64,000 bases of DNA, taken from Candidatus Lokiarchaeota archaeon (GTDB lineage: Archaea > Asgardarchaeota > Thorarchaeia > Thorarchaeales > Thorarchaeaceae). The notes under the pieces were generated by a model. The model saw only the letters and a list, made by a program, of their open reading frames with translations, did not search any database and was not told the DNA's origin. This document shows, in pieces, positions 56,433 through 60,561 of this stretch. Location: the NCBI GenBank assembly GCA_014730275.1, contig WJIL01000096.1, positions 1 through 64,000 on the forward strand, read 5' to 3'. Made by a program: the position numbers and the translations under genes. Positions within the stretch are counted from its first letter, which is position 1; every line of letters begins with the position of its first letter.

Positions 56433-56573
56433 ATGAAGTTAGTAACTCTACACGTTCCGGAAACATACATTGCTGGTTTAGAGAAGCTAGTGGATAGTCA
56501 GCTCTATCCGAATAGATCGGAAGCAATTCGAATTGCTATCCGTGATCTTCTCAAGCGCGAGCTTTGGGGTTGA
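56433..56573 (+). CDS. Ribbon-helix-helix DNA-binding protein
   Basis: A 46-residue protein with the full RHH pattern: strand KLVTLHVPETYIAGLE, a turn, then RSEAIRIAIRDLLKRELW. This is the CopG/NikR-type N-terminal fold found in small archaeal regulators. An in-frame GTG four codons upstream is a second start option. It lies after the divergent acyl-CoA synthetase start and 262 bases before the Cys-rich/coiled-coil pair. A perfect palindrome between is a possible operator. Confidence 0.82.
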   Translation: MKLVTLHVPETYIAGLEKLVDSQLYPNRSEAIRIAIRDLLKRELWG

Positions 56574-56677
56574 AGAACGCATTCGTGGCCGGTGCTCAGA
56601 AATAGTACTGTTGTTCACCGGACTATCCAATTGATATGTCTCCGCAGCATGAAAAATCATCATTAGTGTTAGCGATT

Positions 56678-56709
56678 CCTGGGCAATTGCCCAGGGAAGT
56701 CAATTTTTC
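56678..56709 (+). promoter_or_regulatory. Perfect palindrome with downstream T-run, operator or terminator
   Basis: An 18-base perfect palindrome CCTGGGCAATTGCCCAGG (56678-56695) with no loop, followed by GAAGTCAATTTTTC. With no loop bases it fits a protein-binding operator at least as well as a terminator. It lies between the RHH regulator and the Cys-rich protein pair. Confidence 0.5.
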
Positions 56710-56834
56710 TTTCCATTTGAGTATACTCAACTGTGAGAACTAGGTTATACGTAAGAAATGGTATTATAAGCTAGTTGAATGTTATAAGAATGAAGCTTCA
56801 GTAAACAGGAGCGTGCAGTCACATAGGTTCCGAT

Positions 56835-57800
56835 GTGCCCAGTAAATCTGATAATAGAGCTAATCTACTGGGAAAAAGGAACCAATCCGATGACTTGGTT
56901 AATGGTTGCCCTTGTTACAAGGAATTTGATGATGGGGAAAAGGTATGTCTGAATAATGATGACGTAGTAGAAATCAAACCAATTTCAATCGCCAAATCAT
57001 TCTTCAGCAGTATCGATTCTTTCGAGAATTTGCAGGATCTCAAAAGCGATAAAGAGAATGTTTGTTATTTACTGGTATATCTGGATGATGAGAAAAACGA
57101 GGCATACTGTGTTAGCAAGGGCGAGAAGCTGGTAATTAATGGAAATGATGTAAGAGCAGATGACCTTCGTGATGCTCTTAAATTTGTAAATCTCGGGGGA
57201 AAATCCACGGACGGCGAGATATGTTCCACCTGTATGTACAAGTATTTGATTACGCTGTCGGACATTTTTCAGGGTGTCATTTCAGAAGAGGAACGAACAG
57301 AAATTATTGCGATTTACATCAGAGAGATTGCCAACAGAATGGCACAGGATATGACGGGTGCAGAATCGGAAGAAGTAGAAGCTGCGAATCAGAAGGAGCA
57401 CATTAAGAATCGCATCGTGCAACTGATGGAGCAGAGGGCGAACTGGGAGGAGATAATCCGCCAGATGAAATCGCAGGGAGCCGCCGTCAAACAAGTGCAG
57501 CTTCTGGATAACTACAGGCAACTCAACAGGCTCGAAACAACCTTTCTATCACAAGTGCAAACAATGATGGAAGCTGATAACAACTTCATTGCGCTGAATG
57601 CATTGCGTATGATGATTGCAGTAGCTGAAAAGGCGACTAAAATCTGTAATCGCATTCGTAGCCTCACGCATGACCTAGAAGATGCTGGGAAGATGTCTGC
57701 CCAGTTGAGCTGCATATTGGAACCTCATGCTGAGCGTAGAAGGAAAATCGAGCATAGATTCGATAGAGTCGAACGTGTTCTAAGTGAAATGGAAGCTTAG
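56835..57800 (+). CDS. Cys-rich and coiled-coil protein, first of a tandem pair
   Basis: A 321-residue protein. The N-terminal about 135 residues hold seven cysteines: CPC at 25-27, C38, C77, C92 and the pair CSTC at 130-133. Conserved phrases are GCPCYKEFDD, ENVCYLLVYLDDEKN and AYCVSKGEKL. The remainder (about 150-321) is a long coiled coil (HIKNRIVQLMEQRANWEEII, RRKIEHRFDRVERVLSEME). It starts at GTG. Whole-length similarity to the next gene, also 321 codons. I know no named family; the Cys pattern suggests a metal-binding domain. Confidence 0.8.
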   Translation: MPSKSDNRANLLGKRNQSDDLVNGCPCYKEFDDGEKVCLNNDDVVEIKPISIAKSFFSSIDSFENLQDLKSDKENVCYLLVYLDDEKNEAYCVSKGEKLVINGNDVRADDLRDALKFVNLGGKSTDGEICSTCMYKYLITLSDIFQGVISEEERTEIIAIYIREIANRMAQDMTGAESEEVEAANQKEHIKNRIVQLMEQRANWEEIIRQMKSQGAAVKQVQLLDNYRQLNRLETTFLSQVQTMMEADNNFIALNALRMMIAVAEKATKICNRIRSLTHDLEDAGKMSAQLSCILEPHAERRRKIEHRFDRVERVLSEMEA

Positions 57801-57897
57801 ATGACTCTGCAAAGAAATGATTATCACAAAACAGAACATATTATACGGATGGATAATATAGAAGGACATAGATTCCATAGTCTGAGGGGCAGTATAG

Positions 57898-58863
57898 TTG
57901 AAATCAAAACAAATCGTCGGGAAGAAGGATAAGATTCAGGTTGTAAGGGGCTGTCCATGTTTCAAGCGGTTTGGTGATGAAACACTCTGTGTGAATGATG
58001 ACGACATTCTCGAAGTTGAAATGATTGAAGTCGATCCTTCCCTTTTTTCGTTCCATGAAACCAAAGAGGATATGGAGGAGGAAATCGCACCCGAAGACAA
58101 TGTATGCTACTGCTCAGTCTACATGAATCCCGAAGATAACCGAGTCTACTGTGTATCCCAAGGTTGGCCACTACGTATACACGGAAGGTATGTTCCTGCC
58201 GATGAGATGCGCGACGCGTTCCGATTCCTCTCTACGAAGGATCTATCTGCGCCCGCGGAGATTTGCTCAGAGTGCATCTACAAATTCCTGTTGACACTAA
58301 GTGACACATACTCGAGCGATATGAGTAAGCAAGAACAAACAGACGAAATCAAACGGTACGTAGACAAGTTCTCTCTTATGATAGCAGTGAAACTCAGTCA
58401 AATGGAAGGTATGGAAACCATAGGTACAGAGGATGACATAAACAAAGATGTAGATTACCTCGAATTCCTGCAAGGTTACATAATGCAGCTTCTTGAACAA
58501 CGTAGATTCTGGAAAAATCTGAAAGAGACGTTTGAGAAAGAAGAATCTGAAGAGTGGTTATTGGATATCATTGAGAAGCGTGTTAAGCTTGCCAGGCTTG
58601 AATACCAGTTCTATTCACAGACCATGCAACTGCATCATATCAACGACTTTCATCTCCTCATTCGGAATCTAGAATTCATTCTCAAGACTGCAGGAAGTAT
58701 ACTGAATCTGAATGAAGATATTCATGAGGTCATTAGATCTGACAAGTTTCGCGAAACGGCAAAAGATGATGAACGTCTCGAAAAACTTGTAGCCTATGGA
58801 GAGAAATGCAGGGCAATCGAACACAACTTCGCCAACATATTACAGATTCTGAGCAAATTATGA
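57898..58863 (+). CDS. Cys-rich and coiled-coil protein, second of a tandem pair
   Basis: A 321-residue paralogue of the preceding protein. It keeps seven cysteines at equivalent places: CPC at 19-21, C31, C70, C85 and CSEC at 123-126, plus an extra C72. Shared phrases are NVCYCSVYMNPEDNRVYCVSQG, ADEMRDAFRF and AEICSECIYKFLLTLSD. The coiled C-terminal half is much more diverged (YLEFLQGYIMQLLEQRRFWKNL). TTG start with GAGGGGC upstream, 97 bases after the first gene's stop. It ends convergent to an epimerase gene. Function unknown. Confidence 0.8.
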   Translation: MKSKQIVGKKDKIQVVRGCPCFKRFGDETLCVNDDDILEVEMIEVDPSLFSFHETKEDMEEEIAPEDNVCYCSVYMNPEDNRVYCVSQGWPLRIHGRYVPADEMRDAFRFLSTKDLSAPAEICSECIYKFLLTLSDTYSSDMSKQEQTDEIKRYVDKFSLMIAVKLSQMEGMETIGTEDDINKDVDYLEFLQGYIMQLLEQRRFWKNLKETFEKEESEEWLLDIIEKRVKLARLEYQFYSQTMQLHHINDFHLLIRNLEFILKTAGSILNLNEDIHEVIRSDKFRETAKDDERLEKLVAYGEKCRAIEHNFANILQILSKL

Positions 58864-58935: not shown

Positions 58936-59886
58936 TTACTTCACAGGGCCAAATCTATCATCAAGCCACTGAATGTACTCTCGTACGCCCTGCTCAAGAG
59001 GGACGTCTGGCTCCCACCCATATGATTTGAGTAAGCTGATATCGATATCAGTTACTACAACATCTCCGGCCCAACCCCTTTCAGAACCAGTATATTCAAT
59101 CGTGGCTTCTGGAACACCTGCGGCTTCGCGAACTAGTTCAGCTATCCTCGCCACTTTCAATCGTTCACCTGAGCCCACATTGACAGGCTGATATCCCTCA
59201 GTCATTTTCTCCGCGAGAAGCATGGTGGCATCAACAGTATCGCTGACATACATGTATGACTTCTCTTGCTGACCATCACCAAGCACTTCAAGGCGAGTAG
59301 GATCTCGCTTTAATTTCATATAGAAATCATACATTACACCGTGTGTTGAACGAGGACCTATGATATTTGCCAAGCGCATGCTTACTGAATCAATACCGTA
59401 TAATTCTGCGTAAGAAGACAAGTACATCTCAACAGCCCCTTTGGCAGCACCATAATTGCTGATAGGACGGAATGGAGTACTCTCAGGGGTGGGGAATACG
59501 TCTGTTTCTCCATATACCGTGCCTCCAGAACTCGCAAAGATGAAACGGTTGATATCTCGTTCCCGCATGCTTTCGAGGATGTTCATAGTTCCAACCACAT
59601 TGATTCGAAAATCAAACAGAGGCTGGTCCACACTCAATCTTACATCTGGTTGAGCGGCAAAATGGAGGACAGTATCTACACCTTCTAGGGCTGTATCAAC
59701 ATCTTCTTCGGCAGTAATAGACCCTTCAATAAAGCGGAAGTCTTCTTCACCCTCATGATGGGCAATATTCCGCCGGTCTCCTCCAGATAGGTCATCTAGA
59801 ACAACTACCTCGCATTCATCAAGCAGACGATCGACCAAGTGGCTGCCGATGAATCCTGCACCACCAGTAACTAGTACACGATTCAA
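58936..59886 (-). CDS. NAD-dependent nucleotide-sugar epimerase (UDP-glucose 4-epimerase-like)
   Basis: A 316-residue extended SDR. NAD motif VLVTGGAGFIGSHLVDRLL; FAAQPDVRLSV; active site SSGGTVYG and YGAAKGAVEMY (the Tyr and Lys of YxxxK). The C-terminal substrate half shows GDGQQEKSYMYVSDTVDATML and PVNVGSGERLKVA. It interconverts UDP-sugars, with the exact sugar unclear. It is separated by 51 bases from the next same-strand gene. Confidence 0.93.
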   Translation of the reverse strand: MNRVLVTGGAGFIGSHLVDRLLDECEVVVLDDLSGGDRRNIAHHEGEEDFRFIEGSITAEEDVDTALEGVDTVLHFAAQPDVRLSVDQPLFDFRINVVGTMNILESMRERDINRFIFASSGGTVYGETDVFPTPESTPFRPISNYGAAKGAVEMYLSSYAELYGIDSVSMRLANIIGPRSTHGVMYDFYMKLKRDPTRLEVLGDGQQEKSYMYVSDTVDATMLLAEKMTEGYQPVNVGSGERLKVARIAELVREAAGVPEATIEYTGSERGWAGDVVVTDIDISLLKSYGWEPDVPLEQGVREYIQWLDDRFGPVK

Positions 59887-59937: not shown

Positions 59938-60561
59938 CTAGACGCTGAATCGAGGATCTGAAAGAACAGCTTTCAGAAATGAGAGAGCAGTAGGGTTCTC
60001 TTCAGTCCGATTCCATTCTTTTACGAATTCTTTGAATATCTCCATCTCTTCGGTTACTCGCTGACCAGTCTCTTGCAGTGTCGAGGCTTTTACGTAATCT
60101 CCCTTGCCCAATCCCTGACAGATGTGTTTCATCGCGTTCAAGCCCCAAGCCAGTTCACCGTTTTTCCGCCCAAATACAAACGGAAATGACTTGCACACAC
60201 CCGGGCGATAGGGATAAATCATGCATTTGTTCTCCTTAAGGAATATACACCCAGTATCTTCGAGTTTTTTGAGGGCAACATACGCCCTACCCTCCTCAGT
60301 TTCAACAGAAGGTATCTTTCTGAGGCCCCGTGGAACGCTTTCATTTTCAGATAGAACGTAGAAATCAATCGCCCTTAGCAGTTCCTTCGCATCTAAATCG
60401 AGCAGTTTTGCGATTCGCACAATATCGGTACCTGTAAGTGTCACAAGCATATTTTCTTGGGTACAACAGGCAGCACAACCTGTGCATTCGAACCGAATGT
60501 CGACAGTTGTACTTTCATCAGGTTGTTGCCTGCTGGTAGACATATCTGAGCTACAACTCAC
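59938..60561 (-). CDS. YkgJ family cysteine-cluster protein
   Basis: A 207-residue protein (201 from the internal ATG MSTSRQQ). The Cys pattern FECTGCAACCTQE, then TGCIFLKENKCMIYPYRPGVCKSFPFVFG, is that of the YkgJ/Fe-S or Zn cluster family. The function is unproven. Its GTG start overlaps the aminotransferase stop (GTGA), so the two are translationally coupled. Confidence 0.88.
   Translation of the reverse strand: MSCSSDMSTSRQQPDESTTVDIRFECTGCAACCTQENMLVTLTGTDIVRIAKLLDLDAKELLRAIDFYVLSENESVPRGLRKIPSVETEEGRAYVALKKLEDTGCIFLKENKCMIYPYRPGVCKSFPFVFGRKNGELAWGLNAMKHICQGLGKGDYVKASTLQETGQRVTEEMEIFKEFVKEWNRTEENPTALSFLKAVLSDPRFSV

Follow-up and report, generated by a model that had tools for sequence, protein, structure and literature searches.

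The adjacent genes A and B of the window (the whole analyzed stretch of 64,000 nucleotides, from a member of Candidatus Thorarchaeota) are paralogs that separated long ago, are kept side by side and combine a Cys domain with a helical C-terminal half. The pair represents one of several uses of an Asgard domain with a broader distribution, which elsewhere is fused to Arf-like GTPases. According to the library searches and structural models described below, this domain is new as a protein family and as a predicted fold, not as a proven mechanism.

Both open reading frames of the preliminary description were found on the forward strand and encode 321 aa each: gene A (56835–57800) starts with GTG and gene B (57898–58863) with TTG. 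The two proteins were 30% identical over the full length (BLASTP, 158 bits, E = 1e-50), with the Cys domain at 44% identity and the helical part at 24%. The Cys domain spans residues of about 20–145 in A (56892–57269, forward) and residues 13–135 in B (57934–58302, forward). The seven common Cys were confirmed in the A/B alignment, C25, C27, C38, C77, C92, C130 and C133 of A corresponding to C19, C21, C31, C70, C85, C123 and C126 of B, and the NVCY and YCVS phrases were also present. The equal length of the two proteins, offered earlier as a sign of a heteromeric pair, was rejected as evidence and is best regarded as a coincidence, because the A/B alignment needs several gaps and the orthologs vary from about 300 to 350 aa. 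The helical halves (A, residues 146–321, 57270–57797; B, residues 144–320, 58327–58857; both forward) had been described as long, diverged coiled coils; in place of one long coiled coil, a compact, bundle-like set of helices was predicted, with the modeling done on B. Among the orthologs of A, the median identity in this half was 30%. Comparison with congener G001 gave dN/dS values of about 0.09 for A (0.085/0.98) and about 0.05 for B (0.031/0.67); both genes are under purifying selection and thus functional, B being the slower-evolving and A the faster-evolving partner.

The Cys are conserved far beyond the pair, since six of them were invariant among 40 diverse sequences (in B, C19, C31, C70, C85, C123 and C126, with C21 present in most), together with one Pro and nearly also one Tyr. 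The AlphaFold model of the Cys domain, built from the 40-sequence alignment, reached pLDDT values above 90 for roughly residues 11–110. Read from the predicted secondary structure, one beta-hairpin lies between C19 and C31 of B and another between C70 and C85, with C123xxC126 at the beginning of a helix; in comparison with treble-clef and zinc-ribbon folds, this position of the CxxC at a predicted helix start was noted, and the fold search gave no match. The helical half of B was modeled as five long helices of about 26–29 residues in a compact, bundle-like arrangement, with a pLDDT of about 90 for the greater part, also without a fold match in the PDB.

The earlier statement that no known family comes to mind was borne out in all libraries searched. 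The best matches of A and B in Pfam-A and NCBIfam were at chance level (E 0.006–0.1), far under the cut-offs, and the weak Pfam matches to CFAP47, DPC2, DUF4428 and SCO4226-like, as well as the NCBIfam match to YvyF, were discarded on that ground. Neither protein matched PADLOC, and a phage defence reading was rejected. The Foldseek search of the PDB gave a best E of 0.27 for the Cys domain and 0.39 for full B, no match was found in the profile search against PDB chains, and the model of the Cys domain had no fold match among viral models. PhoU-like, PX-BAR and pore-toxin folds were considered for the helical half and rejected (E of 0.39 or worse, low TM-scores). The domain was also not found in the literature searched on Asgard domains and GTPases, which consisted mainly of open-access papers.

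Profile searching detected the Cys domain in 88 of 228 Asgard genomes, spread over nine families, while the roughly 165 non-Asgard genomes within the 393-genome search of relatives yielded no match, so that its restriction to Asgard archaea holds for the sampled non-Asgard genomes, plasmids and viral contigs. Its neighbors differ among the Asgard families (labeled here f4 to f29). In f24, an Arf-like GTPase encoded by single ORFs in eight genomes carries it at the C-terminus; these fusions match Arf PF00025 at 133–152 bits against a cut-off of 22.3 and have an intact P-loop and DxGGQ (GIDNAGKTT/DMGGQ and GLSNAGKTT/DLGGQ). In the same family, another type of Arf-like GTPase, whose G4 (NKxD) is degenerate, likewise ends in the domain in three genomes, and a further gene shows the A/B-like layout of Cys domain and helical half. 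A multi-TM region of six to eight hydrophobic segments, as judged by hydropathy, precedes the Cys domain in f24 and f20, and a thioredoxin-like domain comes after it in f11 and f29. The f17 genomes encode it as a stand-alone gene, immediately preceded in 7/7 loci by a gene for a giant TrmB-wHTH coiled-coil protein, and in f11, f29 and f4 it adjoins large helical proteins related to this f17 neighbor. The latter (L144:2034-5813, L142:1441-5763), a TrmB-type regulator whose coiled coil spans roughly 1000 residues or more, always precedes the domain gene; its PADLOC matches to ZorA probably reflect coiled-coil similarity. In f4, a thioredoxin domain fused to V4R domains (L153:6547-7995) is encoded beside a stand-alone Cys-domain gene. 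No GTPase was noticed beside the A–B pair in the Thorarchaeota loci examined.

Within the family of the window, Ca. Thorarchaeota, 37 of 47 genomes searched carry A followed by B in tandem (tallied from a table of 99 relatives), so that, for this family, the question whether other Asgard genomes keep both genes side by side was answered positively. The Asgard host was likewise confirmed by the named relatives, nearly all of which are Candidatus Thorarchaeota (two records bear the label Lokiarchaeota, and the titles of two others say just 'archaeon'). Absence of the second gene from relatives, named beforehand as an observation against a paired system, was encountered in isolated cases: B is missing from G038 (99% complete, 7% contamination; L185), where A is immediately followed by the next conserved gene, and G012 (97% complete; L049) carries B but lacks A. 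Pairing of A with B is therefore not obligatory. Among the other exceptions, G002 has B followed by a third paralog, C, and lacks A, G022 holds fragments, G006 and G031 have C only, and the locus of G035 stops at a contig edge. None of the paralogs was found in G003, G010 and G036; since G003 and G010 also lack the neighbor gene 59938–60561, this stretch may be missing from their assemblies. As several of the counts come from MAGs, single absences may represent assembly gaps. In the tree, the A sequences were split from those of B and C by a branch with SH-aLRT 99, placing the A/B duplication, and the separation of the two proteins, before the divergence of the sampled genera. Across the genera of the family, the B orthologs were 53–63% identical to B of the window and the A orthologs 23–44% identical to its A. 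A mobile or viral origin was rejected: the chromosomal synteny of the pair is conserved, and no relatives were found in viral contigs (searched by peptide patterns) or plasmids.

Additional copies were also observed. The genome of the window encodes a third protein, which lacks the CxxC and joins the N-terminal part of the Cys domain to an unrelated C-terminal region, in two almost identical copies that are each truncated by a contig end (L003/L074, G000:C87:1-1023; L004/L075, G000:C69:1-486), as well as a 50-aa remnant of the C-terminal end of B (L005:1492-1644, G000:C52), and congener G001 has an intact second copy of B (L073).

Directly upstream of the pair and on the same strand in 21/21 loci examined lies a nearly invariant gene for a 46-aa CopG/RHH_1 protein (RHH; 56433–56573, forward), which persists in genomes that lack the left-hand genes (clusters c8/c9) or carry others in their place. 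The protein matches Pfam RHH_1 above the cut-off (3.7e-8), and its nearest NCBIfam model is CdrS (NF058555; 48.6 bits, E = 6e-13, below the cut-off of 100). The genome holds three clear RHH paralogs, including one that is 62% identical and directly upstream of ftsZ (L182:1501-2711; Pfam Tubulin 2e-48) and another divergent from a Ras-like GTPase (L183:1501-2395). In one genome (L046 and L076), the RHH gene is tandem-duplicated upstream of the pair. Between RHH and A, a perfect hairpin, CCTGGGCAATTGCCCAGG, is followed by a T-rich tract (56676–56697), and both stem and tract are kept in congener G001; it probably serves to terminate RHH transcription or as an operator. Further downstream, a highly conserved segment containing a TATA-like element, GGTATTATAAG (56738–56770), is the probable A–B promoter. 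Taken in this order, the two elements indicate that A–B probably has its own promoter in the window. No Rfam match was obtained for an RNA element upstream of A. To the right of the pair, a YkgJ-like gene and an aminotransferase gene are conserved in most loci. An NAD-dependent epimerase gene (58936–59886 in the window) is located between B and the YkgJ-like gene in 8/22 loci and is absent from the others.

Several known systems resemble the pair in part. Fusions of longin and roadblock to Asgard GTPases are known (PMC10933270, PMC4917890), and these are likewise small Asgard modules that are joined to Arf/Rag-like GTPases and also occur in other contexts; however, they have no sequence match to the Cys domain, no all-Cys core and another predicted secondary structure, so the likeness is one of use only. 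The YkgJ/CxxCxxCC family (PF03692) is also Cys-rich and presumed metal-binding, and is encoded near the pair by the gene at 59938–60561 (1.2e-11), but A and B do not match PF03692 and their Cys spacing is different. The V4R/TRAPPC3 domain, in which Zn is bound through four Cys, provides a further Asgard Cys-Zn domain, and the thioredoxin-V4R gene adjoins the stand-alone Cys domain in f4; only this neighbor in L153 matches V4R (PF02830), however, while A and B have neither a Pfam V4R match nor a fold match. The resemblance to CdrS concerns the neighbor and not A or B: a CopG-type RHH of 46 aa precedes the pair, and its paralog immediately precedes ftsZ, an arrangement shared with other archaea, but the RHH in question is upstream of A–B instead of ftsZ and scores below the NCBIfam cut-off.

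The best overall explanation, held tentatively and with slightly less than even confidence, is a new Asgard all-Cys docking module, with A and B as partner subunits. The Asgard-specific domain of ~120 residues, with its two Cys-bracketed beta-hairpins and the CxxC at a helix start, would form an all-Cys metal site, probably for zinc, that stabilizes a small docking module. Across Asgard archaea, this module would be used in the manner of longin and roadblock, attached to or encoded beside signaling proteins, namely Arf-like GTPases, multi-TM proteins, a thioredoxin-like domain and the TrmB-type giant coiled coil. A metal site is the most likely role of the invariant Cys: fusion to a cytosolic GTPase would put them in a reducing compartment, which favors metal over disulfides, and their invariance even in such fusions, together with the modular re-use beside signaling proteins, argues for a metal-stabilized docking or regulatory module. 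That the domain might instead be a thiol/redox sensor whose fused modules pass the signal on is quite improbable; the fusion to a thioredoxin-like domain and the thioredoxin-V4R neighbor in f4 would suit such a sensor, but the fused domain has retained just one of the two Cys that normally make up the CxxC (APYC in L071, APHC in L069) and is thus probably not redox-active, and the invariance of all six Cys is what a metal site would predict.

In Thorarchaeota, the A and B subunits are probably joined via their helical bundles into a B-centered adaptor, B being the conserved subunit and A the variable one. The homology of the two proteins, the invariant Cys, the tandem order, the fusions, the RHH linkage and the purifying selection are demonstrated, whereas we infer the metal binding, the A–B complex and its role as an adaptor or regulator; the locus of the pathway concerned would be linked to the CdrS-like RHH regulator. 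Against this reading stand the lack of A in G012 and G002 and of B in G038, the identity of only 24% between the helical halves, the absence of any noticed GTPase beside the pair in the Thorarchaeota loci, and neighbors that vary from one Asgard family to another and thus point to no single pathway. An A–B heteromer is plausible on the basis of co-occurrence, though not an obligatory one. The paralogs could also be sub-functionalized and act separately, for instance as homodimers, with the tandem order merely inherited from the duplication. This is rather unlikely, yet it would account for B alone in G012, A alone in G038 and C in place of A in G002, as well as for the differing rates of A and B; against it, the A–B order behind the same RHH has been kept in 37 genomes (the RHH being checked in 21 loci) despite rearrangement of the left side in several. 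The constancy of the RHH gene beside the pair, its affinity to CdrS, which controls ftsZ2 in haloarchaea (PMC7439475), and the positions of its paralogs at ftsZ and at the Ras-like GTPase gene could instead point to a cell-division or cell-cycle program to which the pair would belong. Such membership has a low probability, given that the match reaches less than half of the CdrS cut-off, that a terminator-like hairpin parts RHH from A in the genome of the window, that regulators need not act on their neighbors, and that the Asgard loci of other families showed no such RHH. An extended version of the docking-module reading, in which the Cys domain would be a third small-GTPase signaling module beside longin and roadblock, and A–B would act in Thorarchaeota as a complex that regulates GTPases or serves as their effector, with its locus under a CdrS-like cell-cycle regulator, is speculative and must be considered unlikely.

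Asgard archaea, the closest relatives of eukaryotes, are studied for the origin of eukaryotic GTPase signaling and membrane biology. A conserved domain that has no match in the libraries searched, is confined to Asgard genomes in the sample and is attached to Arf-like GTPases offers a concrete new component to test in this context, and the Cys domain looks like an unrecognized part of the Asgard signaling machinery.
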